Source of the DNA: Microbispora sp. H13382
Lineage (GTDB): Bacteria; Actinomycetota; Actinomycetes; Streptosporangiales; Streptosporangiaceae
DNA length: 64,000 nucleotides
Direction: 5' to 3'
NCBI RefSeq assembly: GCF_014161445.1
Contig: NZ_JABBXA010000004.1
Location: forward strand, 368,075 to 432,074
Part shown: positions 23,840-41,000 of the stretch, in pieces
Layout of the letters: the number at the start of each line of letters is the position of its first letter
Numbering within the stretch: the stretch's first letter is position 1
Translations under genes and position numbers: made by a program
Notes under the pieces: model-generated
Told to the model about the DNA's origin: nothing
The model's database searches: none
The model's input: the letters and a program-made list of their open reading frames with translations, nothing else

Positions 23840-24793
23840 GTGGAGACGTGGGATGCCACAGAGAAGAGGGCGGCCGAGGCTGACGGCACGCCCGCCGGGC
23901 GGCGCGGATCACGCCGGCCGCGACTGACGGGCCCGTGGCAGGCCCGGCCGCGCCTCAGCAGGCTGAGGCAGGCCCGGCCGCCCGGCGGGTCGCGGCCGAA
24001 CGCGGCCGGCATGGCCGGGGCGGACGGCGTGGTCGGCATGGCCGGCGCGGTCCGCATGGTCCGCCTGGTCGGTGTGGTCGCGCTGGCCGCGATGACGGCC
24101 GCCCAGATCGCGACGGGGCTGCGGCCCCACGACCTGCGCCTCACCACCGTGGTCGTGGTCCTGCTCGCGGTGAGCGCGCTCGCCTTCGCCGCGGCGGCGT
24201 ACGGCCCGGGCAGGGCGGCGGGCGCGTTCGCGGCGGCGGTGACGGCGGGCTTCGCCGCCGAGTGGGCCGGCACCAGGACGGGGCTGCCCTTCGGCGACTA
24301 CCGCTACACCGACGCCCTGTGGCCGCGGCCCGGGGGCGTCCCGCTGGTCGTCGCCCTCGCGTGGGGCGGCATGGGCCTGGCCGCCCACGCCGTCGCCCGC
24401 CGCGTGGCGCCGCGCGGCCGGCTGATCCCGATCCTCGCGGGCGCCCTGGCGCTCACCGCCTGGGACCTGTTCCTCGACCCGCAGATGCTCCGGCTCGGGC
24501 TGTGGGTCTGGGCGGAGCCCGGGCCGTACCGCGGTGTGCCGCTCGGCAACTTCGCCGGGTGGCTGCTGGTGTCCCTCCTGGTCATGACGCTCATTGACCG
24601 CCTCACGGGCCGTACGGACGGCGGCCGGGCGGGGGCCACCGGGCTGGTCGTCCTCTACACGGTGATGGCGGCGATGGAGACCGTCGGCTTCGCCGTGGTG
24701 TTCCGGCCGCCCGATCCGTTGGTGGCCGCCGCCGGAGGGCTCGCGATGGGCACGTTCGCCCTGCTCGCCTGGGGGCGCGCATGGCGGAGGTGA
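23840..24793 (+). CDS. cruF: CruF-like carotenoid 1,2-hydratase
   Basis: An integral membrane protein of up to 317 residues with about seven hydrophobic segments after residue 70. The segment FAAEWAGTRTGLPFGDYRYTD is the signature of CruF/bisanhydrobacterioruberin hydratase (DUF422), followed by TAWDLFLDPQMLRLGLWVW. CruF adds water across the psi end of lycopene-type carotenoids to give a 1-hydroxy end group. The GTG start at 23840 has no clear Shine-Dalgarno, and the first 55 residues are basic and unlike the family, so initiation near the ATG codons for MAGADG or MAGAVRM is possible. It overlaps the next gene by 13 bp and opens the rightward carotenoid operon. Confidence 0.8.
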   Translation: METWDATEKRAAEADGTPAGRRGSRRPRLTGPWQARPRLSRLRQARPPGGSRPNAAGMAGADGVVGMAGAVRMVRLVGVVALAAMTAAQIATGLRPHDLRLTTVVVVLLAVSALAFAAAAYGPGRAAGAFAAAVTAGFAAEWAGTRTGLPFGDYRYTDALWPRPGGVPLVVALAWGGMGLAAHAVARRVAPRGRLIPILAGALALTAWDLFLDPQMLRLGLWVWAEPGPYRGVPLGNFAGWLLVSLLVMTLIDRLTGRTDGGRAGATGLVVLYTVMAAMETVGFAVVFRPPDPLVAAAGGLAMGTFALLAWGRAWRR

Positions 24794-26325
24794 TCGTGGT
24801 CGGGGGCGGCGTCGGCGGCATGGTGGCCGCCCTGCTGCTCGCACGGGACGGGCACGAGGTGCGCGTCTACGAGCGGCTGCCCCGTCTGGGCGGCAAGCTG
24901 GCCGAGCACAGGCGGGACGGCTTCACGTTCTCGATCGGCCCCTCGCTGCTCACGCTGCCCGGCCTCTTCCTGGACCTCGGCGTCCCGCTCGACCTGCTCG
25001 AACTCGACGAGCTGTGCCGCTATCGCTGGCCGGACGGCTCGGCACTGTCCACCTACCGCGACCCGGAGCGTACGGCGGAGGCGGTGGACCGGCTCGCGCC
25101 GGGCGAGGGCCGCCACTGGCGGGCCTACCACCGCTGGGCCGGGCGCTGCCTGGACGCCTCGATGCGCACCTTCTTCGCGGGACCGCTGTCCGGACCCGTC
25201 GTCGAGCCGCCGATCCCGTGGTCCGGACGGCGGGCCGCCGGGATCACGGGCGGACGGCCGGGCGCCGGGCGGCGCGGCCCCGTCCCGCGGCCCCGGCCGG
25301 GCGACCTGCTCGCGGTCGCGCCCGGCCGCACCCTGGACGCGCTGGCCGGCCGGTTCTTCCGGGACGCCCGCCTGCGTCAGTACGTCGGCCGCTACGCCAC
25401 CTACGCCGGGTCGAACCCCTACCGCGCGCCCGCCGCGCTGGGCTGCGTCCCCGCCATCGAGCACGGAGACGGCGGGTGGTACGTGCGGGGCGGGCTGCCC
25501 CGCCTCGCCGACGCGCTGGCCGCGTCGCTCGACAAGGCGGGCGTCGACGTTCACCTGGAGACCGAGATCACCGAACTGATCCCGGGCCCGGGGCGGGTCG
25601 GCGGCGTCCGCACGGCCCGGGGCGAGGCGGTCCGGGCCGACATCGTGATCGTCAACGCCGACGCGGCGGCCCTGTACGGGCGGCTCCTGCCCGACCGCGC
25701 CCGGCTTCGCCGGATCGCCGGGCTGGGCCTGTCGTCGTCCGCCTTCCTGCTGCTCGCCGCGGTGGAGGGGCGGACCGAGGGCATGCCGCACCACTCGGTG
25801 GTGTTCTCCGCCGACTACCGGCGCGAGTTCGGCGACATCTTCGACCGGCGGCGGCCGCCGGAGGACCCCACGGTGTACATCGCCTGCCCGGTGGCGGACG
25901 ACCCCACCCAGGCTCCCGCGGGCGCGGAGAGCTGGAGCATGCTGGTGAACGTTCCCGCCGGCGACCCCGCGCGCTGGCCGCTGCCGCCCGAGGCGTACGC
26001 GGAGCTCGTCCTCGGCCGTCTGGCGAGCAGGGGCCACGACCTGTCCGGACGGCTGCGCTTCCTCGACCTGCTGACCCCGGCCGACCTGCGCGACCGGTAC
26101 GGCGCGTGGGGCGGGGCGATCTACGGCGGCGCCTACGGCGGCCCGCTGGCCCCCTTCCGCCGTCCCGGCAACCGGGGGCCGCTGCGCGGCCTGTACCTCG
26201 TCGGGGGGTCCGCGCATCCGGGAGGCGGGCTGCCGCTGGTGGCGATGGGCGGCCGGATCGTGGCCGCGCTGGTGCGCCGCGACTTCCCCAGCTCCGCACG
26301 TCGCCCGGGGAAGGCACACCCGTGA
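24781..26325 (+). CDS. crtD: CrtD/CrtI-type carotenoid desaturase
   Basis: 514 residues. The FAD dinucleotide-binding motif VIVVGGGVGGMVAALLLARDG is at the very N-terminus, followed by RLPRLGGKLAEH; the C-terminal FAD motif reads LYLVGGSAHPGGGLPLVAMGGR, typical of phytoene-desaturase-related enzymes. Because a separate crtI (30809-32311) sits with crtB, this copy next to cruF is more likely the 3,4-desaturase of 1-hydroxycarotenoids (CrtD). It starts inside the cruF stop region and its own stop overlaps the GT2 start by 4 bp. A Pro/Arg/Gly-rich insertion (GGRPGAGRRGPVPRPRPGD) near residue 160 is unusual. Confidence 0.82.
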   Translation: MAEVIVVGGGVGGMVAALLLARDGHEVRVYERLPRLGGKLAEHRRDGFTFSIGPSLLTLPGLFLDLGVPLDLLELDELCRYRWPDGSALSTYRDPERTAEAVDRLAPGEGRHWRAYHRWAGRCLDASMRTFFAGPLSGPVVEPPIPWSGRRAAGITGGRPGAGRRGPVPRPRPGDLLAVAPGRTLDALAGRFFRDARLRQYVGRYATYAGSNPYRAPAALGCVPAIEHGDGGWYVRGGLPRLADALAASLDKAGVDVHLETEITELIPGPGRVGGVRTARGEAVRADIVIVNADAAALYGRLLPDRARLRRIAGLGLSSSAFLLLAAVEGRTEGMPHHSVVFSADYRREFGDIFDRRRPPEDPTVYIACPVADDPTQAPAGAESWSMLVNVPAGDPARWPLPPEAYAELVLGRLASRGHDLSGRLRFLDLLTPADLRDRYGAWGGAIYGGAYGGPLAPFRRPGNRGPLRGLYLVGGSAHPGGGLPLVAMGGRIVAALVRRDFPSSARRPGKAHP

Positions 26326-27566
26326 GAACCAGCGCGGCCAGGACGGTCGGGTGCACTCGGGCCGGACGGGCCGGTTGGGCCGGGACCGCCGCGCGGGTGC
26401 TCGCCGCCGCCCAGGCCGTGGCGGCCCTCGTCGTGGTGGCGCGGCTCGCCCGCGGCCGCCGGCGGCTCCCGCCGCTCACCGCGCCCCTGCCGGACCCGCC
26501 TCCCGGCGCCGGCGGCCCGCCTGGTGGCGGGTGTCCGGGCATCTCGGTGGTCATCCCCGCCAGGGACGAGGAGCGGAGGCTCGGGCCCTGCCTGCGGGCG
26601 GTGCTGGCCGACCCCGCCGTCACCGAGGTCATCGTGGTGGACGACGAGTCCTCGGACGGCACCGCGCGGATCGCCGCCGCCTGCGGGGCGACGGTGGTGC
26701 GCGGACGCCCGCTGCCGGACGGCTGGGTGGGCAAGCAGTGGGCGCTGCACCAGGGGCTGTCGGAGGCGCGCGGCGAGATCGTGGTCACCCTGGACGCCGA
26801 CACCCGGCCCCGGCCGGGCCTGTTCGGCGCGCTCGCCGCCGCCCTCCGGGACCACGACCTGGTCAGCGCGGGCCCCCGTTTCGTCTGCGAGGGACTCGCC
26901 GAGCAGGCGCTGCACGCGTCGTTCCTCACCACGCTGGTCTACAGGTTCGGCCCCATCGGTCCTCCCGCCCCGCCGCCGCCCCACCGCGTGGTGGCCAACG
27001 GCCAGTGCCTGGCCTTCCGGCGGGAGGCGATGCGGCGGGCCGACGGCTTCGCCCGGGTGCGCGGGCACATGACCGACGACGTCGCCCTCGCCAGAGCCCT
27101 CGCCGCCTGCGGCTGGAGGGTCGGCTTCCTCGACGCGGGGGGCCTGCTGGAGGTCGATATGCACGAGTCGGCGGCCGACGTGTGGCGGGAGTGGGGGCGC
27201 TCGCTGCCGCTGCGCGACGTCACCCGCCCCGCCTGGCAGGCGGCCGACCTCGCCGTCGTCTGGCTCACCGCCGCGTTGCCGGCGCTCCGCCTGGCCGCCG
27301 GGCGGCCGACCCGGCTCGACCTGGCGCTGCTCGCCGTACGGGTGCTGCTCACCACCGCGCTGCGGCGCAGCTACGCCCGGCCGGGCGCGGGCGTGGCGCT
27401 GTCGTTCCTGCTCGACCCGGCCACGGCCGTACGGCTGACGCAGGCGACGCTGCGGCCCGTCAGGACCTGGCGGAGCCGCGCCTACCCCGTCTACCCCGCG
27501 GCGGGGGCCGGCGCCGTCAGGCGCGGCGCGCGGCCAGCGCCGCCTGCCCGAAGCGCAGCCCGATGA
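26322..27566 (+). CDS. Family 2 glycosyltransferase, CrtQ/CruC-like
   Basis: 414 residues: an N-terminal membrane helix (about 15-45), a GT-A domain, and C-terminal hydrophobic segments (about 305-350). The nucleotide-sugar site is seen in ISVVIPARDEERRLGPC, VIVVDDESSDGTA and VTLDADTRP (DxD), with the acceptor-side VANGQCLAFRREAM and the acidic HMTDDVALA. This layout is that of carotenoid glycosyltransferases such as CrtQ. It should glycosylate the 1-hydroxyl made by CruF. GTG at 26322 overlaps the crtD-like stop (GTGA). The last 50 bp overlap the end of the opposite-strand plsY-like gene. Confidence 0.82.
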   Translation: MRTSAARTVGCTRAGRAGWAGTAARVLAAAQAVAALVVVARLARGRRRLPPLTAPLPDPPPGAGGPPGGGCPGISVVIPARDEERRLGPCLRAVLADPAVTEVIVVDDESSDGTARIAAACGATVVRGRPLPDGWVGKQWALHQGLSEARGEIVVTLDADTRPRPGLFGALAAALRDHDLVSAGPRFVCEGLAEQALHASFLTTLVYRFGPIGPPAPPPPHRVVANGQCLAFRREAMRRADGFARVRGHMTDDVALARALAACGWRVGFLDAGGLLEVDMHESAADVWREWGRSLPLRDVTRPAWQAADLAVVWLTAALPALRLAAGRPTRLDLALLAVRVLLTTALRRSYARPGAGVALSFLLDPATAVRLTQATLRPVRTWRSRAYPVYPAAGAGAVRRGARPAPPARSAAR

Positions 27567-28131
27567 GGCACATGAGCGCGCCGGTCGCGGCGACGTGGCC
27601 GATCGGCGCGAACGGCAGTTGCAGCAGCGGGATCGCGAACACCCCGGCCCGGGCCCCGGCCGCGAACGACCGGGTGAGCAGGAAGACCACCCCGAGAACG
27701 GCGAGCGCGAGCCCGAACGCGGGCGGGCAGATCACCGCGATGCCGCCGGCGAAGGTCAGCACCGACCGCCCGCCGCGGAACCCGGCGAAGACCGGCCAGG
27801 CGTGCCCGATCATCGCCGCCCCCACCGCCAGGTACGCCGTGGGGACGCTCGGGCCCGCGACCACCCCCGGCCCGGTGGTGTGGGCGCCGCCGGCCAGCAG
27901 GCCGAGCAGCCCGGCGAGCACGCCCTTGGCCATGTCCCCGGCGAAGACCGGCGCCGCCGTCCGGCCGCCGAGCCGTTCGCGCACGTTCCAGAAGCCGGGG
28001 TTGCGGTCGCCGATCTCCCGGGGATCGACGCCCCGCCGCCCCGCGACCAGCACCGCGACCGGAACCGAGCCGAGAAGGTAACCGCCGATGAGCGCCACCA
28101 GCAGGGGGATGAGCGGCGGGAGCGTCGTCAC
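27517..28131 (-). CDS. PlsY-like acyltransferase with altered signature motifs
   Basis: 204 residues with five or so hydrophobic segments. The overall match is to PlsY, which transfers acyl groups from acyl-phosphate to glycerol-3-phosphate. Motif 1, normally around GNxGATN, reads DRNPGFWNV; motif 2, normally FKGGKGVAT, reads FRGGRSVLT; the C-terminal motif 3 with conserved Asn and Glu is missing, and the protein ends FGQAALAARRA. This argues for a different acceptor or loss of activity. The GTG at 28131 has GGAGG at about 6-nt spacing. It lies inside the carotenoid cluster, overlapping GT2 by 50 bp (3' ends) and the crtA-like gene by 23 bp (5' ends). Confidence 0.8.
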   Translation of the reverse strand: MTTLPPLIPLLVALIGGYLLGSVPVAVLVAGRRGVDPREIGDRNPGFWNVRERLGGRTAAPVFAGDMAKGVLAGLLGLLAGGAHTTGPGVVAGPSVPTAYLAVGAAMIGHAWPVFAGFRGGRSVLTFAGGIAVICPPAFGLALAVLGVVFLLTRSFAAGARAGVFAIPLLQLPFAPIGHVAATGALMCLIGLRFGQAALAARRA

Positions 28132-28858
28132 GTTCCACCTCCAGCGATACGCGGACCGGGGGGCCATGCGTCACATGGCCTTCGACCGCCCGGTGCTGCG
28201 CCGCACCGGGGGGCTGCTGTTCTGGCGGCTGCTCGGCTCGGGCCGGGGAGCGTCGACGACCCTCGGCGCCGACCTGCGCCGCTGGGCGCTGCTCGCCGTC
28301 TGGCGGGACGAGCGGGCGCTCGAGGAGTTCCTGGCACGCTCGCCGATCCCCGCCAGGTGGCGGCGCGAGGCCGTCGAGGCCTGGCACGTACGGCTCGCGC
28401 CGATCGCCTCGCGCGGGCGCTGGAACGGGGTCGAGCCGTTCACACCCGTGTCCCGGCTGCCCGGGCCGCCCGGCCGCGCGGGGTCCCACGCCACGGCGGG
28501 GCCGGAGGACGGCCCCGTGGCGGTGCTGACCCGGGCGTCGATCCGGCCGTCGCGCCTGGTCGCGTTCTACCGGTCCGTGCCCGCCGTCGAGCGGTGGCTG
28601 CGGGCCCAGGAGGGCTGCCTCGCCTCCGTCGGGCTGGGGGAGTGGCCGCTGGCCCGGCAGGCCACCTTCTCCCTGTGGCGCGACGCCGCCGCCGTCCGCG
28701 CGTTCGCCTACGCCGGGCGGGCCCACCGCGAGGTTGTCGAACGGGTCCGCGCCCACGACTGGTACTCCGAGGAGCTGTTCGCCCGGTTCATTCCCTATGC
28801 GAGCGTGGGCACCTGGGGCGGCGCCGACCCCCTCGCCGGTCGTCGAACCGCACAGTGA
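28109..28858 (+). CDS. crtA: Spheroidene monooxygenase-like protein (CrtA)
   Basis: 249 residues. Segments matching CrtA are HMAFDRPVLRRTGGLLFWRLLGSGRG, WALLAVWRDERAL, the middle VAVLTRASIRPSRLVAFY and the C-terminal HDWYSEELFARFIPYASVGTW. CrtA introduces a 2-keto group at the end of acyclic 1-methoxy or 1-hydroxy carotenoids. The ATG at 28109 follows AGGGGG; the frame extends to 28088 without homology. Its first 23 bases overlap the first bases of the divergent plsY-like gene, so both promoters lie inside the neighbour's coding sequence. The stop lies in a 12-bp tandem repeat. Confidence 0.8.
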   Translation: MSGGSVVTFHLQRYADRGAMRHMAFDRPVLRRTGGLLFWRLLGSGRGASTTLGADLRRWALLAVWRDERALEEFLARSPIPARWRREAVEAWHVRLAPIASRGRWNGVEPFTPVSRLPGPPGRAGSHATAGPEDGPVAVLTRASIRPSRLVAFYRSVPAVERWLRAQEGCLASVGLGEWPLARQATFSLWRDAAAVRAFAYAGRAHREVVERVRAHDWYSEELFARFIPYASVGTWGGADPLAGRRTAQ

Positions 28859-28875
28859 ACCGCACAGTGAACCGC
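28845..28875 (+). repeat. 12-bp tandem repeat spanning the crtA-like stop codon
   Basis: GAACCGCACAGT occurs at 28845-28856 and 28857-28868, with a partial third copy to 28875. The stop TGA (28856-28858) straddles the junction of copies 1 and 2. Confidence 0.85.
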
Positions 28876-28890
28876 CCCGGTCTCCTCGTG

Positions 28891-28910
28891 GGCCGGGGCG
28901 GCGCCCGGCC
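28891..28910. terminator. Hairpin between convergent crtA-like and plsX genes
   Basis: GGCCGGG (28891-28897) pairs with CCCGGCC (28904-28910) in the 62-bp gap between the two convergent genes. Confidence 0.5.
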
Positions 28911-28920
28911 GAGCGGGAGG

Positions 28921-29892
28921 TCACGGCGCCGGCTGGACGGCGAGACGGTCGCCGAGCCGGGCCACGACCTCGCCCTCGGCGAGGTCGCGCGCCACCACGC
29001 AGGCCCGGGCGACGGTGCCGGCCCGGGAGGAGCCGTGCGCCACGACGACGGTGCCGGTGAGCCCGAGGAGGGCCGCGCCGCCGTGCGTCTCGGGGTCGTA
29101 GCGGGCCGCCACCCGGCGGAGGCCGGCCGGGCCGGCCACGCCCTCCGCCGCCGCGAGGGCGAGCGTGGCGCGCACGGTCCCCTCCACGTTCTTCAGCACG
29201 ACGTTGCCGGTGAACCCGTCGGTGACGATCACGTCGACGACCCCGGTGAGCACGTCGCCGCCCTCCACGTTGCCGTGGAAACGCAGCGGCAGGCCGCGCA
29301 GCAGGGTCTCGGCCCGGCGGGTCAGCCGGTTCCCCTTGCCGGGCTCCGCGCCGATCGACAGCAGCCCGACGCGAGGGTCGGCCACGCCCAGCACGAGCTG
29401 CGCGTACGACGCCCCGAGCAGTGCGAACTGGGCGATCATCTCGGGCATCGGGTCCACGGTCGCGCCGGCGTCGACCAGCACGGTGACCCCGCCCGCCGTG
29501 GTCGGGAGCGCGACGGCCAGCGCGGGGCGCAGCACGGCGGGCGCGGTGCCGAGCCGGTCGGCCGCGCAGGCGACCACGGCCCCGGTGGACCCCGCCGACA
29601 CGAATGCCGCGCCGGCTCCCTCCCGCAGGAGGTCGAAGCCGACGGACAGGCTGGAGCGGACCATGCGGACCGCGCCCGCGCCCCGCTCGGTCATCGGCAC
29701 GACCTCGGCGGCGTGCACGACGTCGATCTCGCCCGCCGCCCCGAGCCGGGCCAGTTCCCCGCGTACGACCCCGGCCCGGCCGACGAGGACGACCGGCACG
29801 CCGTGCTCCCGCCACGCCTCGACCGCCCCCCGGACGATCTCCGCGGGCCCGTGGTCGCCGCCCATGGCGTCCACCACGACCGGGCGGGACAT
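28921..29892 (-). CDS. plsX: PlsX, acyl-ACP:phosphate acyltransferase
   Basis: 323 residues with intact family motifs: VVVDAMGGDHGP at the start, SAGSTGAVVA, VLVDAGATVDPMPE, and TDGFTGNVVLKNVEGTVR. PlsX makes acyl-phosphate from acyl-ACP for use by PlsY. The ATG at 29892 has GGAGG at 7-nt spacing and overlaps the crtB stop by 1 nt (TGATG), so it is co-translated with the carotenoid genes. A housekeeping plsX normally sits with rpmF and acpP, so this is probably a second, pathway-dedicated copy. It may supply acyl-phosphate to the nearby PlsY-like protein; that is inference. Confidence 0.88.
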   Translation of the reverse strand: MSRPVVVDAMGGDHGPAEIVRGAVEAWREHGVPVVLVGRAGVVRGELARLGAAGEIDVVHAAEVVPMTERGAGAVRMVRSSLSVGFDLLREGAGAAFVSAGSTGAVVACAADRLGTAPAVLRPALAVALPTTAGGVTVLVDAGATVDPMPEMIAQFALLGASYAQLVLGVADPRVGLLSIGAEPGKGNRLTRRAETLLRGLPLRFHGNVEGGDVLTGVVDVIVTDGFTGNVVLKNVEGTVRATLALAAAEGVAGPAGLRRVAARYDPETHGGAALLGLTGTVVVAHGSSRAGTVARACVVARDLAEGEVVARLGDRLAVQPAP

Positions 29893-30812
29893 CACGCCAC
29901 CTCCACCCGGCGTTCGGCGCGGGCGGCGGCACGCGCGGCGAACAGGTGCCGGGTGAAGATCGCGAGCCTGCGCCGCCGGGAGACCCTGGCCCGCCTCGCC
30001 AGCACGTCGTGCCCGGCCGCCCCGATCTCGTCCAGGATGCCGCCGTACAGCTCGTACGCCGCCCTGATGCAGGGCCGGGACGACGGCGCGAGCAGCGCGA
30101 TCCCGTCGCGGGCCCGCCGGTAGTGGTCGCGGGCGCGGTCGCACTCGTAGGCCACCAGCTCCCGCACGGCCGGCGCGGCGTACGGCGCGGCCAGGTCGGC
30201 CTCCGTCACGCCGAACTTGTCGAGGTCGGCGAGCGGCAGGTAGACGCGACCCCGCGTCAGGTCCTCGCGCACGTCGCGGATGAAGTTGGTGAGCTGGAAG
30301 GCCAGCCCGAGCTGGCGGGCGGGCTCGCGGGCCCGCCCCTCCTCGCCCGGCAGGGCCTCCAGCACCGGCAGCATCATCGTCCCGATGACCGCCGCCGACC
30401 CTTCCATGTATCCCAGCAGGTCGTCGTAGGTCGCGTACCGGTCCACGGTGAGGTCGGCGCGCATGGACGCGAGGAACGCCCGCACGTCGGCCTGGTCGAT
30501 CCCGAACGCCCGCACCGTGTGCGTGAACGCGGGGAGCACCGGATCGCGGACGTGCTCGCCGTCCAGCGCGGCGGCGAGCCGGGAGGACAGGCGCTCCAGC
30601 GCCGCGGCCCGGTCGCCGGTCACCGCGAACGAGTCCACGATCTCGTCGGCGTAGCGGGCGAAGCCGTACAACGCGTGGACGTGCGGCCGTTTCCACGCGG
30701 GCAGCAGGCGGGTGGCCAGGTAGTACGAGCGGCCGTAGCTCGCGTGCAGCCTGCGGCACCGCTCGTAGCCGGCCGTCAGCGTCGCGGCCGGCGTCTGTGG
30801 TGGCGCGCTCAT
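29892..30812 (-). CDS. crtB: Phytoene synthase
   Basis: 306 residues of the squalene/phytoene synthase family. The two Asp-rich sites are RYADEIVDSF near residue 55 and QLTNFIRDVREDLTRGRVYLP near residue 165; the latter is the family signature. It condenses two geranylgeranyl diphosphates to phytoene. The ATG at 30812 overlaps the crtI stop by 4 bp (ATGA) and the stop overlaps plsX by 1 nt. It is the third gene of the leftward crtE-crtI-crtB-plsX operon. Confidence 0.93.
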   Translation of the reverse strand: MSAPPQTPAATLTAGYERCRRLHASYGRSYYLATRLLPAWKRPHVHALYGFARYADEIVDSFAVTGDRAAALERLSSRLAAALDGEHVRDPVLPAFTHTVRAFGIDQADVRAFLASMRADLTVDRYATYDDLLGYMEGSAAVIGTMMLPVLEALPGEEGRAREPARQLGLAFQLTNFIRDVREDLTRGRVYLPLADLDKFGVTEADLAAPYAAPAVRELVAYECDRARDHYRRARDGIALLAPSSRPCIRAAYELYGGILDEIGAAGHDVLARRARVSRRRRLAIFTRHLFAARAAARAERRVEVA

Positions 30813-32311
30813 GGGGTGCTCTCCAGGATGCGTTCGGCGGCCAGGCGGCCGGAGATCAGCACGGGCGGCACCCCGACGCCGGGCGCCGTGTACATGCCCG
30901 CGAAGTGGAGGCCGGGGACCCGCCGGGCCGCGCCGGACGGGCGGAACCACGCCGTCTGGGTGAAACGGGCGTCGAGCGCGAAGGGCGTGCCGGCCGAGTG
31001 GCCGCGCCGCCGCCACGCGGGGGGATCGAACACCAGCCGGGGCGTGCCGGACAGGTCGCCGTACCCGAGGCCGGCGAGCCGGCCCAGCATGCGGTCCACG
31101 AGGCGGGGGGTGAGCGCGGTCCAGTCGGCGCCGCCCCGCGTGTTGGGGGCGGGCTCCAGCACGCTGAGCACGGCGGGCCCCCCGCCGCCGGGCCCGTGGT
31201 CGCCGGGCCCGTGGTCGTCAGGGCCAGGACAGGTCACGAGCAGGCTCGGGTCCGGCTGCGGCCTGCCCGCCTCCAGCTCCGCGAACGTCGTCTCCCATTC
31301 ACGCCCGAAGTGCAGGGTGTGGTGGGCCTGGCCGTCCGGGCGCCGGTCCAGCGCGAAGTGCGCGACCAGGCACGAGGGGGACAACCGGGGCCGGCGCAGC
31401 CGCCAGTCGGCCGCCTCCTCGGGCAGCAGGCCGTCGCCGTCCCGCCGCCCGTGGGCCCGGAGCAGGTCGCAGGCCACCACGGCGTGCCGGGCCGCCAGCC
31501 GCTCCCCGGTGTCGAGGCGGACGGCGACCACCCCCGCCCCGTCGGTCTCGATCCGCGTGGCCCGCACGCCGTAGCGGAAGACGGCCCCGGCCTTCTCGGC
31601 GGCGGCGGCCATGGCCCGCGGGACGGCGTGCATGCCGCCCTCACGGGGGAAGTAGACCCCGCCGACCGTGTCCATGTGGGCGATCACGGCGTACACGCCG
31701 AGGGCGCGGCGCGGCGACAGGCCGACGTACAGCGCCTGGAACGTGTGCGCCCTGATCAACCGCTCGTCGGTGAGGTGGCGCCGCACGAGCCCGTCCAGCC
31801 GGCGGAAGCCGCCGAGCGCGGCCAGCCGCACCAGCGCGTACGGCCGGGCCAGCGCGCGCAGCCGGGTCATGTCGCGGTCGATGAACGCGCTCCACTCGGC
31901 CTCGAACATCTCGCCCAGCAACTGCCGGAACCGCCGGTAGCGCACGGCCTCGGCGGGCCCGCACAGCGCCCGCACCCGCTCGGCCATGGCGTCGGCCCCC
32001 GCCACCACGTCCAGCCGCGACCCGTCGTGGAAGGTCAGCCGGTAGTACGGATCGAGCCGGCGCAGCGGCAGCCAGCGCTCCAGGTCCTGCCCGGCGGCGG
32101 CGAAGGTGTCGGCCAGCACCCCCGGCATGGTCAGCACCGAGGGCCCGATGTCGACCCGGTGGGAGCCCAGGGCCGCCGTGCCGCAGCAGCCGCCCGGCAC
32201 GTCGGCGGCTTCCACGACCGTCACCTCGCGGCCCGCCCCGGCCAGGCGCATCGCGGCGGCCAGGCCGCCCAGCCCGGCGCCGACGACCACGACCGGCCCG
32301 CCCGCGGTCAT
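30809..32311 (-). CDS. crtI: Phytoene desaturase
   Basis: 500 residues. The N-terminal FAD motif PVVVVGAGLGGLAAAMRLAGAG is followed by DVPGGCCGT and DIGPSVLTMPG; the C-terminal motif FAGMYTAPGVGVPPVLISGRLAAERIL completes the CrtI pattern. It introduces double bonds into phytoene to give lycopene or neurosporene. A low-complexity insertion of Gly, Pro, Asp and His (PGPDDHGPGDHGPGGGG) lies near residue 368, probably a surface loop with a short duplication. Its start overlaps the crtE stop by 4 bp. Confidence 0.92.
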   Translation of the reverse strand: MTAGGPVVVVGAGLGGLAAAMRLAGAGREVTVVEAADVPGGCCGTAALGSHRVDIGPSVLTMPGVLADTFAAAGQDLERWLPLRRLDPYYRLTFHDGSRLDVVAGADAMAERVRALCGPAEAVRYRRFRQLLGEMFEAEWSAFIDRDMTRLRALARPYALVRLAALGGFRRLDGLVRRHLTDERLIRAHTFQALYVGLSPRRALGVYAVIAHMDTVGGVYFPREGGMHAVPRAMAAAAEKAGAVFRYGVRATRIETDGAGVVAVRLDTGERLAARHAVVACDLLRAHGRRDGDGLLPEEAADWRLRRPRLSPSCLVAHFALDRRPDGQAHHTLHFGREWETTFAELEAGRPQPDPSLLVTCPGPDDHGPGDHGPGGGGPAVLSVLEPAPNTRGGADWTALTPRLVDRMLGRLAGLGYGDLSGTPRLVFDPPAWRRRGHSAGTPFALDARFTQTAWFRPSGAARRVPGLHFAGMYTAPGVGVPPVLISGRLAAERILESTP

Positions 32312-33600
32312 CGGCGGGCTCCGCCGGTCGAGGGCCCCGCGGATTCGGACAGGGGAGCGGGGCCGGGTCGAGCGGGGTCGGGTTGAGCTCGGCAGGTGCG
32401 GGCGAGGAGGCCTGTGGGATCGGGGTGGGTGAGGCGGCGGGCGAGGTCGAGCAGGGCCGACCGGGCGTCCGCGGGCATGTCCGCCCCGGACAGCGCCCCG
32501 GCCGCGGCCTCCGTCAGGTCGCCGATGCGCCGCTCGACCGTCTCCAGCGCGCCGGTCGCGACGATCACCTCCCGGGCCGCCGCCACGAGGTCCGGCGGCG
32601 CCTCGCCAGGTTTCGGCAGCGCGTCCGGCCGCGCCTCGCCCGGCCTCGGCAGCGCGTCCAGCAGCGCCGCGCCCGGGCCGTCCGCCCGTTCGCGGGCCAG
32701 CGCCAGCAGGTAGGTCCGCTTGCCCTGCAGCAGGTCGGCCCCGGCGGGCTTGCCGGTCCGCGCCGGGTCGCCGAAGACGCCGAGGACGTCGTCGCGGAGC
32801 TGGAAGGCCTCGCCCAGCGGCAGCGCGTACGCGCTGAGGACCCGGCGCAACCCGGGCTCGCCCCCGGCGATGGCGTGACCGAGGTGCAGCGGCCGCTCAA
32901 CCGTGTATTTGCCCGACTTGTACGTCGAGATCAGCAGGGCCTCCCGGCGCCCGCCCCCGCCCCGGGCGGCGCAGGTCAGGTCGAGGTACTGCCCGGCGGC
33001 CAGTTCGACGCGCAGCTGGGTGAGAACCTCCAGGGCATCGGCCAGCCTGCGGCGGTCGGCCAGCAGTGCGGAATCGGCCCAGGTGAAGGCCAGCATGCCG
33101 AGCAGGACGGCGGCCGACTCCCCGAACCGCCGCGACGACCCGGCCCAGCCGCCCTCCCGATGCCGCTCGGCGAGCGCCACGTGGGCGGTGACCCGGCCGC
33201 GCCGCAGCGGCGACTCGTCCATCACGTCGTCGAGGATCAGCGCGCACGCGTGGAGGAGCTCGATCGAGCAGCCGGCCGCCAGCACGGCGTCGAGGTCGTC
33301 GGGGGAGCCGCCGGAGGCCCGGTGGCCCCAGTAAACGAAAGCCGGCCGCAGCCGCCTGCCACCGCGCGCGACGAAGCCGGCGAGGTGGCGCCGCAACGTC
33401 TCCCGGTCCTCGGCCCCGAGGAAGGACAGCCGGTCCATCTCACGCCGGAGCAGCTCGTCCAGGGCCCGGTCGAAGAGGGTGCGGTCGAACGACAGGGTGC
33501 GGTCGAACAGGGCGCCGTCGGACGGGCCGGACAGGTGATGATCGGACGGCTCCCGCGTCTCGTCCCGAACGCCGCCGGTCTCGCGGGTCAACGTCACCAT
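32308..33600 (-). CDS. crtE: Geranylgeranyl diphosphate synthase (polyprenyl synthetase)
   Basis: 430 residues, longer than usual (about 350) because of an N-terminal extension with FDRTL repeats and a Pro/Ala-rich C-terminus. The first Asp-rich motif is LILDDVMDES and the second is FQLRDDVLGVFGD; GGRRLRPAFVYWG matches the substrate-binding Arg/Lys region. It makes the C20 precursor for phytoene. A short in-frame duplication (LPRPGEARPD / LPKPGEAPPD) lies in the C-terminal third. The ATG at 33600 has AAGGAG 8 nt upstream; the frame to 33744 is unsupported. First gene of the leftward carotenoid operon, divergent from litR. Confidence 0.92.
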   Translation of the reverse strand: MVTLTRETGGVRDETREPSDHHLSGPSDGALFDRTLSFDRTLFDRALDELLRREMDRLSFLGAEDRETLRRHLAGFVARGGRRLRPAFVYWGHRASGGSPDDLDAVLAAGCSIELLHACALILDDVMDESPLRRGRVTAHVALAERHREGGWAGSSRRFGESAAVLLGMLAFTWADSALLADRRRLADALEVLTQLRVELAAGQYLDLTCAARGGGGRREALLISTYKSGKYTVERPLHLGHAIAGGEPGLRRVLSAYALPLGEAFQLRDDVLGVFGDPARTGKPAGADLLQGKRTYLLALARERADGPGAALLDALPRPGEARPDALPKPGEAPPDLVAAAREVIVATGALETVERRIGDLTEAAAGALSGADMPADARSALLDLARRLTHPDPTGLLARTCRAQPDPARPGPAPLSESAGPSTGGARR

Positions 33601-33913
33601 GCGCACTGCTCCTTCGATCGTTACGGTGATCGGCGGCGCCGTCAGTAGAGTTTTCGCGCCCGCCCGCTCCGGCGGTTGCATCCGTGCCGGGCTCCCCCGT
33701 CGAAACAAGGCCAGGGGGCGGCCGAAAGGGGCGGAGGCGGCCACGAGGACCGTGCGCGTGCGGCTCCCGGTGTGCCGTGCCCGGCCGTGGTCGTGCCCGG
33801 TGCTCGCGAGGCGCGCGCCGGCGGGCTGAGAGGCTGGTCGCAGGGACGCGTACGGGCGGCCGGAGCACGGCGAGTGGCCGGGACGACCGGCCGGACGGAC
33901 ACGGGGTGAGCGG
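33601..33913. other. Divergent crtE-litR regulatory region
   Basis: A 313-bp gap. By analogy with actinobacterial lit loci it should hold the LitR-repressed and/or LitS-dependent promoter of crtE. The only AT-richer patch (CGAAAACTCTACTGA on the minus strand, near 33637-33655) is a candidate crtE promoter, about 40-55 nt upstream of the start. No palindromic operator is obvious by eye. Confidence 0.4.
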
Positions 33914-34945
33914 GTGGCAGACGAGGACGCACCGGGGGCCGGCGAGAACGCGGCCGCCGAGGAGGAGCCGGGCTACGGCATCGGGGCCGTCTCCCGGCGG
34001 CTCGGCGTGCCCGCGTCCACGCTGCGCACCTGGAACCTCAGGTACGGCATCGGCCCGAGCAGGCGCAGCCCCGGCGGGCATCGCCGTTACGACGACGCGG
34101 ACCTGCGCCGCCTGGAGGAGATGAACCGGCTGATCCGGGCCGGGATGCCGCCGGCCGACGCCGCCAGGCAGGCGCTGCGGCCGCGGTCCGCACCGGGAGA
34201 GCGGGCGGCGCCCCCGGCCGGGCCGGGCGCCGCCGCGCCCCCGGAGTCCCGTGCGGGGTCGTCCGCGCCCTCCGAGTCTCATGAGTCCCCGGAGCCGCGC
34301 GTGGCGCCCGCGCCCGCCGTACGGCAGGCCCCGGAACCCGGGCTGCTGTCGGCGGTGATGCTGGCCCGCGCGGTGACGGCGCTGGACGCCCCGACCGTGA
34401 GCGTGGGACTGGACACGGCGCTGACCACGCACGGCGTGGTGTGGACGTGGGAGCGGCTCGTGCTGCCGGTGTTCGCGGCCGTCAGCCGCAGGCAGCAGGA
34501 CACGTGCGCCGGGATCGACGTCGAGCACCTGTTCTCCGAGCGGCTCCAGGTCGCGCTCGCGCGGTTCGCCGCCCGTGCGCCCGCGCCCGTGCATCCCCGT
34601 CCGGTCCTGCTGGCCGCCGCCGAGGAGGAGCAGCACGCGCTGCCGGTCCACGCCCTGGCCGCGGCGCTCGGCACGCTCGGGGTGGAGACCCGCGTGCTCG
34701 GGGCGCGCACGCCGTACCGGGCGCTGGCGGACGCGATGCGCCGCCTCGGTCCCGCGGCGGTGTTCGTGTGGTCGCAGATGCGGGAGACCGGCGATCCGGC
34801 GCCGCTGGCCGATCTGCCGCGGCTCCGCCCCGCCTGCCGCGTCGTGGCCGGCGGGCCCGGGTGGGGGGACCACCTGCCCGCGGAGGTCGTCCGGGTGACG
34901 ACGTTTCGCGACGCCATCTCGGCGGTAATGACCACTCTGCGGTGA
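33914..34945 (+). CDS. litR: MerR-family regulator with cobalamin-binding domain (LitR/CarH type)
   Basis: 343 residues. MerR DNA-binding domain at about 20-90 (YGIGAVSRRLGVPASTLRTWNLRYGIGPSRRSPGGHRRY), a Pro/Ala/Ser linker (about 91-142), a helical cap domain (about 145-225, with EH at 204-205) and a B12-binding Rossmann domain (about 228-343) in which His241 of EEEQHALP is the likely cobalt ligand. In the CarH cap the residue that stacks on adenosyl is a Trp nine residues before EH; here that position does not look like Trp. Such proteins repress carotenoid genes in the dark with adenosylcobalamin and release DNA in light. It is divergent from crtE and followed by a LitS-type sigma factor. 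Confidence 0.87.
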   Translation: MADEDAPGAGENAAAEEEPGYGIGAVSRRLGVPASTLRTWNLRYGIGPSRRSPGGHRRYDDADLRRLEEMNRLIRAGMPPADAARQALRPRSAPGERAAPPAGPGAAAPPESRAGSSAPSESHESPEPRVAPAPAVRQAPEPGLLSAVMLARAVTALDAPTVSVGLDTALTTHGVVWTWERLVLPVFAAVSRRQQDTCAGIDVEHLFSERLQVALARFAARAPAPVHPRPVLLAAAEEEQHALPVHALAAALGTLGVETRVLGARTPYRALADAMRRLGPAAVFVWSQMRETGDPAPLADLPRLRPACRVVAGGPGWGDHLPAEVVRVTTFRDAISAVMTTLR

Positions 34946-35019: not shown

Positions 35020-35041
35020 TGAATAGGTTTTGAATAAGTTT
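35020..35041 (+). promoter_or_regulatory. Tandem TGAATARGTTT repeat before the sigma factor gene
   Basis: TGAATAGGTTT (35020-35030) and TGAATAAGTTT (35031-35041) are adjacent 11-bp copies, one mismatch apart, in a strikingly AT-rich patch 19 nt before the start codon. They are probably part of the litS promoter or an operator read by the adjacent regulator. Confidence 0.6.
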
Positions 35042-35059
35042 TGGGGTCAAGGGGGGCCG

Positions 35060-35581
35060 ATGGAGGAGACGCTGGAGTTCCGCCTCGCCGCGGGAGACGC
35101 GGGCGCCCTGGGGGAGTGCTACCGCGCCCACTCGCCGGCCGTGCGCTCCTACCTGCGCAGACTCGTGCCGCCCCAGGACGTCGAGGACGTCCTGCAGGTC
35201 GTCTTCACCGAGGTGTGGCGCTTCCGGCACCGCTTCGACCCGGGTCGCAGCCTGTCGGCCTGGCTGTTCGGCATCGCGCGCAACCGCGCGGTGGACCACC
35301 TGCGGGCGCGCACGCCCACGACGGTGCCGCTGGAGGCGGTGCCCGACCCGGCGGGGCACGACGGCCGGCTGGACGGCGACGAGCTCGCCGACCGCGACCG
35401 CGTCCGGCGCGCGCTGGCCGCCCTGCCCCATGTGCAGCGCCAGGCGATCGAGCTGGCGTACTACGGGGACCTGACCCAGCGGGAGATCGCCGAGCACCTG
35501 CGCGTCCCGCTCGGCACGGTCAAGGCGCGTACGGCGCGCGGCCTGCACCGCCTGTCCACGCTGCTGCGGACGGCGGCCTGA
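35060..35581 (+). CDS. litS: ECF RNA polymerase sigma factor, LitS type
   Basis: 173 residues. Region 2 spans about 10-80 (YRAHSPAVRSYLRRLVPPQDVEDVLQVVFTEVWRF, then SLSAWLFGIARNRAVDHLRAR) and region 4 about 115-170 (LPHVQRQAIELAYYGDLTQREIAEHLRVPLGTVKARTARGL). No anti-sigma gene adjoins. Location between litR and ybgA beside crt genes matches the light-induced ECF factor LitS of streptomycetes, which transcribes crt genes. The ATG at 35060 follows AGGGGGG; the frame upstream to 35030 runs through the repeat and is rejected. Confidence 0.87.
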   Translation: MEETLEFRLAAGDAGALGECYRAHSPAVRSYLRRLVPPQDVEDVLQVVFTEVWRFRHRFDPGRSLSAWLFGIARNRAVDHLRARTPTTVPLEAVPDPAGHDGRLDGDELADRDRVRRALAALPHVQRQAIELAYYGDLTQREIAEHLRVPLGTVKARTARGLHRLSTLLRTAA

Positions 35582-38693: not shown

Positions 38694-41000
38694 ATGGGCA
38701 TGAACGCATACGGGAACATCGACGCCTACTGGCGGGCCGCGAATTATCTGTCCGTCGGCCAGATCTACCTGATGGACAACCCGCTGCTGACCGAGCCGCT
38801 CAGGCCCGAGCACGTCAAGCCGCGACTGCTCGGCCACTGGGGGACCACCCCCGGGCTCAACTTCTGCTTCGCCCACCTCAACCGGATCATCCGGGAGCGG
38901 GGCCAGGACATGATCTACATCGCCGGCCCCGGTCACGGCGGCCCGGCGGCGGTCGCCCACGCGTGGCTCGAAGGCACCTACACCGAGCGCTACCCCCACA
39001 TCACGCGGGACGCCGAGGGCATGCGCCGGCTCTTCCGGCAGTTCTCCTTCCCGGGCGGCATCCCCAGCCACGTCGCCCCCGAGACTCCGGGCTCCATCCA
39101 CGAGGGCGGCGAGCTCGGCTACGCCCTCTCCCACGCGTACGGCGCGGCCTTCGACAATCCCGGCCTGGTCGTGGCCTGCGTCGTCGGCGACGGCGAGGCC
39201 GAGACCGGCCCGCTCGCCACCGCATGGCACTCCAACAAGTTCCTCAACCGGGACACCGACGGGGTGGTCCTGCCGATCCTGCACCTGAACGGGTACAAGA
39301 TCGCGAACCCGACCGTGCTGGCCAGGATCCCCGAGGAGGAGCTGGTCAAGCTCTTCGAGGGGTACGGCTACCGCCCGCACATCGTCTCCGGCCACGAACC
39401 GGCCGAGATGCACGAGCTGATGGCCGGCACCCTCGACACGGTCTTCGGCCAGATGGCCGACGGCGGCCCGCTGCCGATGATCATCCTGCGTACGCCGAAG
39501 GGCTGGACCGGGCCGCGCGAGGTCGACGGGCTCCCGGTCGAGGGCACCTGGCGCGCCCACCAGGTGCCGCTGACCGACGTACGGGACCGGCCGGACCGGC
39601 TGGAGTACCTGGAGGAGTGGATGCGCTCCTACCGCCCGGAGGAGCTGTTCGACGCCGACGGGCGGCCGGTCGAGACGATCACGGGGACCGTCCCTGACGG
39701 GCCGCTGCGGATGAGCGCCAGCCCGCACGCCAACGGCGGGGAACTGCTGCGCCCGCTCGTGCTGCCCGACTTCCGCGACTACGCGGTCGAGGTGAAGGCC
39801 CCGGCGACGGCCTCCAGCGAGCCGACCCGCGTCCTCGGGGCGTTCCTGCGCGACGTCATCGCGGCCAACCCTGCGAACTTCCGGCTGCTCGGCCCGGACG
39901 AGACCGCCTCCAACCGCCTGTCGGCCGTCTTCGAGGCGACCGGAAAGGAGTGGGAGGCCGCCCTGCTGCCGACCGACGAGAACCTCGGCCCCGGGGGCAG
40001 GGTCATGGAGGTGCTCAGCGAGCACCAGTGCCAGGGCTGGCTGGAGGGCTACCTGCTGACCGGCCGCCACGGGCTGTTCAACTGCTACGAGGCCTTCATC
40101 CACATCGTCGACGCGATGTTCAACCAGCACGCCAAATGGCTGGAGTCCTCCCGCAAGATTCCCTGGCGGCGGCCGGTCGCCTCGCTGAACTACCTGCTGT
40201 CGTCCCACGTGTGGCGCCAGGACCACAACGGCTTCAGCCACCAGGACCCCGGCTTCCTCGACGTCGTCGTCAACAAGAAGGCCGAGGTCGTGCGCGTCTA
40301 CCTGCCGCCGGACGCCAACACCCTGCTGTCGGTCGCCGACCACTGCCTGCGCTCGCGCGACTACGTCAACGTCGTCGTGGCGGGCAAGCAGCCCGTGCTC
40401 GACCTGATGAGCATGGACGAGGCGGTCGTCCACTGCACCCGCGGCCTGGGCATCCTCGACTGGGCCTCCACCGACGAGGGCGCCGACCCCGACGTCGTGC
40501 TCGCCTGCGCCGGCGACGTGCCCACGCTGGAGACCCTGGCCGCCGCCGCGCTGCTCCGCGAGCACCTGCCCGAGCTGCGGATCCGGGTGATCAACGTGGT
40601 CGACCTCATGCGGCTGCAGCCGGCCTCCGAGCACCCGCACGGCCTGCCCGACGTCGAGTTCGACGCGCTGTTCACCACGGACAAGCCGATCATCTTCAAC
40701 TTCCACGGCTACCCGTGGCTGATCCACCGGCTCACCTACCGGCGTACGGGGCACGACAACCTGCACGTGCGCGGTTACAAGGAGGAGGGCACCACGACCA
40801 CGCCGTTCGACATGGCGATGCTCAACGACATCGACCGCTTCCACCTGGTGATGGACGTGATCGACCGGGTGCCCGGCCTGGGCAGCCGCGCCGCCCACCT
40901 GCGCCAGCGCATGGCCGACGCCCGGCTGCGCGCCCGCGCCCACACCCGCGAGTTCGGCGAGGACCCCGCCGAGATCCGCGACTGGACGTGGCCCTTCTGA
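38694..41000 (+). CDS. xfp: Phosphoketolase (xylulose-5-P / fructose-6-P)
   Basis: 768 residues, slightly shorter than the usual 790-830. The thiamine diphosphate motif is [19 protein letters not shown] (about 165-183). Other family blocks are [58 protein letters not shown] and [17 protein letters not shown]. It cleaves xylulose-5-P or fructose-6-P with phosphate to acetyl-phosphate and an aldose phosphate. The usual partner acetate kinase is not adjacent. GGGAAAG precedes the ATG at 38694; the ATG two codons later is an alternative. Confidence 0.93.

Follow-up and report, generated by a model that had tools for sequence, protein, structure and literature searches.

A divergent PlsX/PlsY pair in the carotenoid gene cluster of Microbispora sp. 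H13382 and its likely role in carotenoid glycoside acylation

Introduction

Why should a carotenoid gene cluster carry both a PlsX and a divergent PlsY, and what would such a pair acylate? To our knowledge, acyl-phosphate has no role as a donor other than in the acylation of glycerol phosphate by PlsY, and no fatty acid is known to be attached to a pigment by acyl-phosphate chemistry. Several acyltransferases acting on carotenoid glycosides have been reported, i.e. CruD (Chloroflexus; proposed in Rhodococcus), CrtO (staphyloxanthin), and Orf9 (Myxococcus) (PMC4155588, PMC7502451, PMC9598406, PMC8156234). In the literature that we searched, no PlsX/PlsY pair of this sort is described for carotenoid acylation, and the carotenoid structures of the genera considered here are not reported, Microbispora papers included. 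Based on comparative analyses, we propose that the crt PlsX/PlsY pair likely acylates a carotenoid glycoside via acyl-phosphate, although neither enzyme nor pigment data are available for this reading.

Organization of the crt cluster

The window, the whole 64,000-nucleotide stretch of Microbispora sp. H13382 DNA that was analysed, contains the genes listed in Table 1. A sequence-only reading of it had described plsX as the last gene of a crtE-crtI-crtB-plsX operon with a 1-nt overlap with crtB; this held, the crtB stop and plsX start having one base in common (TGATG), and crtB and crtI also overlap (ATGA). The same reading had placed a PlsY-like gene between a GT2 and a crtA-like gene, which held as well and is refined by the overlaps of the PlsY ORF with both neighbors: it shares 50 bases (27517-27566) with the convergent GT2 and also covers the start of the divergent CrtA ORF. 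The description of the GT2 as CrtQ-like had to be corrected, as the protein resembles the 2'-O-glycosyltransferase CruG instead, with NF045692 as its highest-scoring NCBIfam model (247.7 bits) and the cut-off of 600 unmet.

In profile searches, no NCBIfam model scored above its cut-off for CrtE or CrtB, the best one for CrtB being HpnD (203 vs a cut-off of 279 bits). The true start of CrtE is probably internal to its ORF, and comparison with relatives suggests a GTG near 28131 as the start of crt PlsY. The MerR/B12-binding regulator may put the cluster under light control, and the adjacent ECF sigma factor lies in the position of LitS.

Table 1. Genes of the crt cluster, with coordinates given as positions in the window.
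Feature	Coordinates	Strand	Evidence
CruF-like carotenoid hydratase	23840..24793	(+)	PF04240 133 bits; TIGR03460 104.5 bits, below cut-off 154.7
CrtD-like 3,4-desaturase	24781..26325	(+)	TIGR02734 283 bits, above cut-off; CrtD NF045637 304 bits, below cut-off
GT2 glycosyltransferase, CruG-like	26322..27566	(+)	PF00535; top NCBIfam match CruG, below cut-off
Divergent PlsY (crt PlsY), ~204 aa	27517..28131	(-)	PF02660 102 bits; ORF reaches 28167
CrtA-like spheroidene monooxygenase homologue	28088..28858	(+)	NF045923 176 bits, below cut-off 300; head-to-head with PlsY
crt PlsX, final gene of crtEIB operon	28921..29892	(-)	TIGR00182 263 bits, above cut-off
CrtB phytoene synthase	29892..30812	(-)	PF00494 250 bits; name from domain and context
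CrtI phytoene desaturase family	30809..32311	(-)	TIGR02734 378 bits, above cut-off
CrtE prenyl diphosphate synthase	32308..33744	(-)	PF00348 149 bits; name from domain and context
MerR/B12-binding regulator, CarH/LitR-like	33914..34945	(+)	PF13411; CarH NF052513 66 bits, below cut-off
ECF sigma factor	35030..35581	(+)	TIGR02937 91 bits, above cut-off

Fold and active site of the crt PlsY

PF02660 is the sole Pfam match of crt PlsY (102.3 bits, cut-off 24.1), and the PlsY equivalog model TIGR00023 is not met (75.2 bits, cut-off 137.2). An AlphaFold2 model (pLDDT 93.1, pTM 0.90) predicts the PlsY fold: Foldseek retrieved the aaPlsY entries 5xj5-5xj8 (E 2.8e-7 to 1.9e-6, TM over query 0.71-0.74) and, beyond aaPlsY, no match in the PDB at E <1.

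We compared 81 crt with 31 canonical PlsY proteins, using the aaPlsY residue numbering (PMC5700162). The canonical set consists of the protein of L071 and the 30 top-scoring matches, and it leans towards the canonical because these 30 were picked by best score. The five residues of the glycerol-3-phosphate (G3P) site, Ser35, Arg45, Lys104, Asn180, and His177, are all present in 31/31 canonical proteins. In all 81 crt PlsY proteins, Ser35 is exchanged for Asp and Lys104 for Arg, position 45 is Glu (69), Gln (6), Asp (3), Arg (2), or Gly (1), and the motif 3 residues His177 and Asn180 have no counterpart in the alignment. Single aaPlsY mutants at these positions retained 4.8% (S35A), 1.1% (R45A), 4.6% (N180A), and 0.3% (H177F) of the activity (PMC5700162 table 2), and Lys104 to Arg alone was mild (25% activity, Km 1.4-fold); among 7,288 homologues counted in that study, Asp35 occurs in 2.7% and Arg104 in 2.6%. 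Gly34, Asn37, Gly39, Asn42, His92, Gly102, and Gly103 are retained in 81/81 crt proteins. Trp replaces Thr41 in every one of them, position 105 is Ser (73) or Cys (8) and position 107 invariably Leu, both in the phosphate hole, Ser142 has become Ala (63) or Thr (16), and Ile143 is always Arg, a residue that adjoins the former active-site positions. At the residue level, the G3P clamp of aaPlsY is thus replaced, and of the acyl-phosphate side (His92, Thr41, loop 102-107, and the oxyanion residue Asn37) much is retained but not Thr41, while the activity itself is inferred. The two motifs earlier read in the H13382 protein, DRNPGFWNV and FRGGRSVLT, were confirmed, as was the lack of motif 3.

With so many canonical active-site residues replaced, crt PlsY might be catalytically dead and merely act as a membrane scaffold for pigment enzymes. 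We consider this very unlikely: D35, N37, W41, H92, and R104, all at active-site positions, and the adjoining R143 are invariant in the 81 proteins, the gene is coupled to plsX (see below), and in five comparisons its dN/dS (0.26-0.38) was similar to that of CrtB (0.20-0.36), showing comparable purifying selection.

Distribution of crt PlsY and of a second PlsX

In a species-level scan, the best 80 of 124 relatives were kept, the other 44 remaining outside the counts. The retained loci belong to genera of the Streptosporangiales, to two Acidimicrobiia, and to some MAGs. A survey of crt loci with alignment of the PlsY motifs had been suggested as a check; it found crt PlsY adjoining the GT2 and CrtA in 80/80 loci, a PlsX within the cluster in 70/80, and the G3P site replaced. 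A PF02660 gene of any kind occurs in 33 family genomes (H13382 included), and 30 of them show the crt arrangement; because of this recurrence, together with that in the 80 loci, the placement of PlsY is not a matter of chance.

One could still suppose that this is an ordinary PlsX/PlsY pair for phosphatidate synthesis, residing in the cluster by accident and perhaps supplying membrane for the pigment. In its favor are the PF02660 score, the PlsY fold, and the observation that crt PlsY is the only PlsY of the H13382 genome. However, 117/150 family genomes searched contain no PF02660 gene at all, the Acidimicrobiia genome G545 holds a canonical PlsY beside the crt one, crt PlsY occurs without the GT2 in 0/150 genomes, and the G3P residues critical in aaPlsY are replaced or without counterpart, the Lys104 exchange alone being milder. 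We therefore regard this explanation as very unlikely. That this was the only PlsX/PlsY pair of the genome and served ordinary phosphatidate synthesis had been named as a refutation of the sequence-only reading; it is half met, since PlsY is a sole copy, but fails overall on account of the PF02660-free genomes, of G545, and of the two PlsX in H13382, of which the crt copy is the second. PlsX without any PF02660 gene is found in 112/150 family genomes, which raises the question of why PlsX persists there.

At least two PlsX are present in 26/30 genomes with crt PlsY vs 2/120 other family genomes, and crt PlsX forms a clade of its own, apart from 31 housekeeping PlsX. Concerning the earlier statement that it keeps all family motifs, the protein passes the TIGR00182 equivalog cut-off (243.4 bits), and among the columns conserved in the housekeeping proteins it keeps 91, with 61 changed or variable. 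As for the ten loci without a cluster PlsX, one (L182) is truncated by the end of its contig, another (L170) also lacks a detected CrtB, and the eight that were checked have exactly one PlsX per genome. Thus the pairing is not absolute, and a PlsX encoded elsewhere must serve there.

These absences, together with the Thr41 to Trp exchange and the altered positions 105 and 107 in the phosphate hole, would suit an alternative in which the glycoside is acylated from acyl-ACP or acyl-CoA and crt PlsX has another role. In aaPlsY the Thr41 hydroxyl touches the acyl-phosphate carbonyl (PMC5700162); the donor site is therefore incompletely preserved, and another donor in place of acyl-phosphate remains possible. 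Nevertheless, we deem this unlikely, as His92, Asn37, and Gly102-Gly103 are invariant, the second PlsX tracks crt PlsY, and crt PlsX vanished along with PlsY in both natural losses described below. We propose instead that crt PlsX is a dedicated maker of acyl-phosphate from acyl-ACP, an activity that is inferred.

Co-occurrence with the glycosyltransferase and natural losses

Among 150 family genomes, the GT2 (cut at E 1e-40) and crt PlsY occur together in 30, the GT2 alone in one, and crt PlsY alone in none, so that their presence is concordant in 149/150. When only the 72 genomes with CrtB were considered (E 2.5e-57 or better, a cut set at a gap in the match table), crt PlsY was found in 30/31 with the GT2 and in 0/41 without it, which supports a link to glycosylation and not simply to carotenoid production. 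Fisher values for this co-occurrence ignore shared ancestry.

Two genomes have lost part of the cluster, and a tree built from five shared enzymes nests both among genomes that own it. G012 retains CruF, CrtD, GT2, CrtA, CrtB, and CrtI, with PlsY and PlsX gone from its cluster, and G066 retains CruF, CrtD, CrtA, CrtE, CrtI, and CrtB, with GT2, PlsY, and PlsX gone from the cluster. Both losses fit an order of GT2 first and PlsX/PlsY after, though this order is inferred and rests on two cases only.

It is also conceivable that the acyl group goes not to the sugar but to a hydroxyl on the carotenoid, or that the acceptor is some other product of the cluster. CrtA is as constant a neighbor as the GT2 (80/80), so linkage alone cannot single out the sugar, and sequence cannot reveal an acceptor. 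Against this, G066 keeps the hydratase, the desaturase, and CrtA and yet has neither GT2 nor the pair, and no CrtB genome without the GT2 has crt PlsY. The partial losses do single out the sugar, albeit in only two instances, and a non-sugar acceptor appears unlikely. The recruitment of the pair for carotenoid glycoside acylation, as claimed in the sequence-only reading, is hence supported by the GT2 tracking, the extra PlsX, the active-site pattern, and the two nested losses, with acceptor, position, and donor inferred.

Proposed pathway and comparison with known systems

In the proposed pathway, whose order, like the PlsX/PlsY activities, is inferred from comparative evidence only, CrtE, CrtB, and CrtI would build the C40 chain, CruF would introduce a tertiary hydroxyl as the site for glycosylation, CrtD would desaturate the chain, and CrtA would then add a keto group. 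The CruG-like GT2 would form the carotenoid glycoside that serves as acyl acceptor. The crt PlsX would convert acyl-ACP to acyl-phosphate, from which crt PlsY, a membrane enzyme with a rebuilt G3P pocket, would transfer the acyl group to a sugar hydroxyl of the acyclic carotenoid glycoside, giving a membrane-anchored carotenoid glycosyl ester.

The pair resembles the aaPlsY phospholipid pathway (PDB 5xj5-5xj9; PMC5700162) in its PlsY fold, in His92, Asn37, and Gly102-Gly103, and in a PlsX above cut-off. It differs in the replaced G3P clamp, in the missing counterpart of motif 3, and in the setting of its PlsY, which lies within a carotenoid cluster, co-occurs with a carotenoid glycosyltransferase, and is missing from most family genomes. 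CruD, CrtO, and Orf9 share the step proposed for crt PlsY, in which a carotenoid glycoside is esterified with a fatty acid; none of them is known to us as a PlsY protein. The CrtO family PF18927 has no match in the H13382 genome, but as 14 control genomes gave none either (0/14, no positive control), the absence of CrtO is not proved.

If the proposal is true, PlsY would be the founder of a family with a changeable acceptor, acyl-phosphate would serve more generally as an acyl donor in membranes, and a named gene could be assigned to the fatty-acyl step in a whole group of actinobacterial pigments. The exchanges of Ser35 to Asp and Arg45 to Glu, with the loss of motif 3, would then offer a natural specificity switch on a solved fold. 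A bolder reading, towards which we lean only slightly, is that of a second biological use of acyl-phosphate: specialised metabolism would have a PlsX/PlsY pair of its own, in which a PlsY with its phosphate pocket turned sugar-recognising acylates carotenoid glycosides in the membrane. This would apply to many genera of the Streptosporangiales and to no fewer than two Acidimicrobiia.

Cyanobacterial synthesis of myxol glycosides, which are not known to be acylated, has a CruF/CruG branch. The crt cluster likewise combines a hydratase with a GT2 glycosyltransferase whose top NCBIfam model is CruG, but has PlsX and PlsY in addition. The light-controlled crt locus of Streptomyces is crtEIBV-litR-litS. 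As in that locus, MerR/B12-binding and ECF sigma factor genes adjoin crtE in H13382, whereas plsX takes the place of crtV and an acyclic glycoside branch that of crtYTU.

Organization and spread of the crt cluster

The host genome of the Microbispora crt cluster comprises 8.7 Mb in 70 contigs. The sequence-only reading had reported a PlsX/PlsY-like pair in this cluster, had read divergent motifs in the PlsY-like protein (crt PlsY), and had interpreted the pair as recruited to acylate the carotenoid glycoside. Both the observation and the motif readings held, and the interpretation is now well backed by comparative evidence and appears likely, while its chemistry remains an inference. CrtI, the CrtD-like protein, and PlsX passed the curated NCBIfam cut-offs; the names of CrtE, CrtB, CrtA, CruF, and the CruG-like glycosyltransferase GT2, the proposed maker of the glycoside, rest on Pfam domains, best models below cut-off, and context. 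An ATGA overlap joins CrtI and CrtB, and a one-base overlap (TGATG) joins CrtB and PlsX. The 3' end of the PlsY ORF falls within the end of GT2 and its 5' end within the start region of CrtA; coding sequence is probably the setting of the promoters and start codons at both overlaps.

Features of the Microbispora window and of relatives' loci (L, locus; G, genome)
Feature	Position	Strand	Remark
CruF		+	first block
CrtD-like		+	first block
GT2	window 26322-27566	+	first block
PlsY-like (crt PlsY)	window 27517-28167	-	first block
PlsY/GT2 overlap	window 27517-27566		tail-to-tail
PlsY/CrtA overlap	window 28088-28167		head-to-head starts, overlapping frames
CrtA-like		+	first block
PlsX (crt PlsX)	window 28921-29892	-	second block
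CrtB		-	second block
CrtI		-	second block
CrtE		-	second block
MerR/B12-binding regulator		+	beyond CrtE
ECF sigma factor		+	after the regulator
Phosphoketolase (xylulose-5-phosphate/fructose-6-phosphate; PF09364/PF09363/PF03894)	window 38694-41000		downstream of pigment locus
Divergent PlsY pair, G079	L068:8990-9553 and 10314-10997	-	flanks unidentified ORF
Divergent PlsY, G117	L069, about 9763-10179	-	within ~1 kb of the ORF below
ORF, G117	L069:11103-12173		by eye resembles DAK/FakA-type kinase
Two small membrane ORFs, Acidimicrobiia cluster	L180:7329-7989		by eye like CrtYc/CrtYd lycopene cyclase halves

A one-genome-per-species scan turned up 124 relatives. The analysis retained the best 80; the other 44 were not retrieved and stand outside the locus counts. 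Judged by crt PlsY, Microbispora species are the nearest named relatives. The kept loci include Microbispora, Nonomuraea, Streptosporangium, Sphaerisporangium, Planobispora, Planomonospora, Planotetraspora, Actinomadura, Actinocorallia, Thermomonospora, and Thermoactinospora, as well as two Acidimicrobiia and a few other MAGs. Next to PlsY, tblastn (E 1e-6, part of the contigs being short) detected GT2 and CrtA at 80/80 loci, CrtD at 76, CrtB and CrtI at 75 each, CruF at 71, and PlsX at 70. A chance neighbourhood was rejected on the basis of this recurrence across 80 loci, and of the PF02660 (PlsY family) gene sitting in the crt cluster in 30 of the 33 family genomes that have one.

A proposed rebuilt acceptor site in crt PlsY

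The AlphaFold2 model of crt PlsY, predicted with 66 of the 81 crt PlsYs, reached a pLDDT of 93.1 and a pTM of 0.90, and the only Foldseek hits at E < 1 were aaPlsY entries. In aaPlsY, whose numbering we follow, Ser35, Arg45, Lys104, and Asn180 hold the phosphate of glycerol-3-phosphate (G3P), Ser142 and His177 hold its 2-OH, His92, Thr41, and the 104-107 backbone bind acyl-phosphate, and the oxyanion is probably stabilized by Asn37 (PMC5700162). The 81 crt PlsYs were aligned with 31 canonical PlsYs, a reference picked among the best-scoring and hence canonical-leaning. His92, Asn37, and Gly102-Gly103 are invariant in 81/81 crt PlsYs, all of which also carry Ser35 to Asp, Lys104 to Arg, Thr41 to Trp, and Ile143 to Arg exchanges; Arg45 is replaced by Glu in 69 and retained in 2. 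Motif 3 (His177, Asn180) has no counterpart in the MAFFT alignment, which gaps the crt C-terminus at this point, so that deletion and substitution of these two residues cannot be told apart. Among 80 C-terminal windows around an LRF motif, 72 contain neither His nor Asn; a His lies among the final three window residues in L114, L132, L133, L134, L144, and L182, and a pattern search did not find the motif in L145 and L153.

Not all of these changes are drastic, as aaPlsY with Lys104 exchanged to Arg keeps 25% activity, and 2.7% and 2.6% of 7,288 homologues naturally carry the rare residues Asp35 and Arg104, respectively (PMC5700162); these homologues might be the crt PlsY group itself. The acidic residues replacing Ser35 and Arg45 would repel phosphate and could contact sugar hydroxyls, the sugar contact being an inference. 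For aaPlsY, a mechanism has been proposed in which no protein base takes part and the nucleophile is activated by acyl-phosphate (PMC5700162). This would ease a change of acceptor: with activation supplied by the donor, rebuilding of the acceptor pocket would be enough. The change at Thr41, together with residues 105 and 107, implies that the donor side is altered as well, and a donor other than acyl-phosphate cannot be excluded; His92 is kept throughout. Under the favoured reading, in which crt PlsX makes acyl-phosphate for crt PlsY, the fold and probably the donor are known, while acceptor and context are likely new, donor and acceptor both being inferred.

Is the pair an ordinary phospholipid pair?

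The Microbispora genome itself holds two PlsX, one PlsY, and seven PF01553 acyltransferase matches. As a PF02660 gene is present in only 33 of the 150 family genomes (own counted), the majority must rely on something other than a PF02660 PlsY for phospholipid synthesis. PlsX is found in 145/150 and occurs without a PF02660 gene in 112, where the consumer of acyl-phosphate is not evident. The three PF02660 genomes outside the crt pattern carry other PlsY kinds, canonical in G114 (on a 3.4 kb contig) and divergent in G079 and G117. In the Acidimicrobiia genome G545, crt PlsY occurs alongside a canonical PlsY that retains Ser35, Asn37, Arg45, His92, Lys104, His177, and Asn180. Ordinary phosphatidate synthesis by the crt pair was rejected on the distribution of PF02660, the active-site residues, and this joint presence in G545.

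Link to glycosylation and probable natural losses

GT2 (E 1e-40) was detected in 31/150 family genomes: G012 and the 30 genomes that carry crt PlsY. CrtB, read down to E 2.5e-57 at a gap in the match table, is present in 72/150, and crt PlsY is absent from all 41 CrtB genomes that lack GT2, G114 with its canonical PlsY among them. Linkage to carotenoid synthesis in general, instead of glycosylation, was rejected on this co-occurrence; its Fisher values ignore shared ancestry and cannot be read as probabilities. Acylation of a non-sugar hydroxyl by crt PlsY is still possible.

Regarding acylation of the glycoside, two family genomes are informative. The G012 cluster retains the pathway including GT2 but lacks both PlsY and PlsX, and the genome has no PF02660 gene and one PlsX, outside the cluster. 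The G066 cluster retains CruF, CrtD, CrtA, CrtE, CrtI, and CrtB and lacks GT2, PlsY, and PlsX; its genome has no GT2 match (E 1e-40), no PF02660 match, and one PlsX. In a FastTree built from five enzymes that the clusters share, with the root placed on Acidimicrobiia (39 tips: 40 chosen loci minus L063 and L066, where a marker gene is missing, plus the window), G012 was sister to L054 (support 0.97) and G066 fell within a group of eight (support 1.0). Because both are nested among cluster owners, both look like losses. They fit an order, itself inferred, of GT2 first and PlsX/PlsY after.

A separate clade of crt PlsX

In a midpoint-rooted FastTree, 69 crt PlsX (70 minus L114 and L173, removed for length, plus the window copy) split from 31 housekeeping PlsX (the own copy and best-scoring matches), with support of 0.86 and 1.0, respectively. 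Among columns conserved in housekeeping PlsX, 91 are kept and 61 are changed or variable in crt PlsX. Eight of ten clusters without PlsX were checked, six from Streptosporangiales that contain CrtB and CrtI and two from Acidimicrobiia, and each genome held exactly one PlsX; two control genomes whose clusters include PlsX held two each. The dN/dS of PlsY and PlsX resembles that of CrtB, at about 0.2-0.4 (four Microbispora comparisons and one Planotetraspora comparison).

Known systems and other PlsY types

Carotenoid glycoside fatty acid esters are known from Chloroflexus and Rhodococcus, where the acyltransferase is named CruD (PMC4155588, PMC7502451), from staphyloxanthin-type pathways with CrtO (PMC9598406), and from Myxococcus with the putative acyltransferase Orf9 (PMC8156234). 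A PF18927 (CrtO) search gave no match in the host genome, though it had no positive control. A 2024 paper on wider PlsX/PlsY roles concerns E. coli envelope balance (PMC11633183). In the open-access literature searched (titles and abstract openings; coverage is partial and not proof), PlsX/PlsY in a carotenoid cluster is undescribed, and neither pigments nor crt clusters with PlsX/PlsY were found for these genera, Microbispora papers included.

The divergent PlsYs of G079 and G117 read GTGTVS or GSGTVS in motif 1 and GGRG in motif 2, and could represent another acyl-phosphate system. A third type, distinct from the canonical and crt types, occurs in the Acidimicrobiia genomes G545 and G546 (L221, L222): the L221 copy (GSGNPGGANAAAVLG) has a normal GGKG loop and Ala in place of Thr41 and Arg45, and the L222 copy is a fragment. 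The PlsY tree including these types, from which L145, L153, L182, L132, and L144 were left out, suffered from fragmentary sequences, with a support of 0.0 at the crt node, and served for reading residues, not branching. Finally, the CrtYc/CrtYd-like ORFs in L180 raise the possibility that the Acidimicrobiia glycoside is a cyclic carotenoid.
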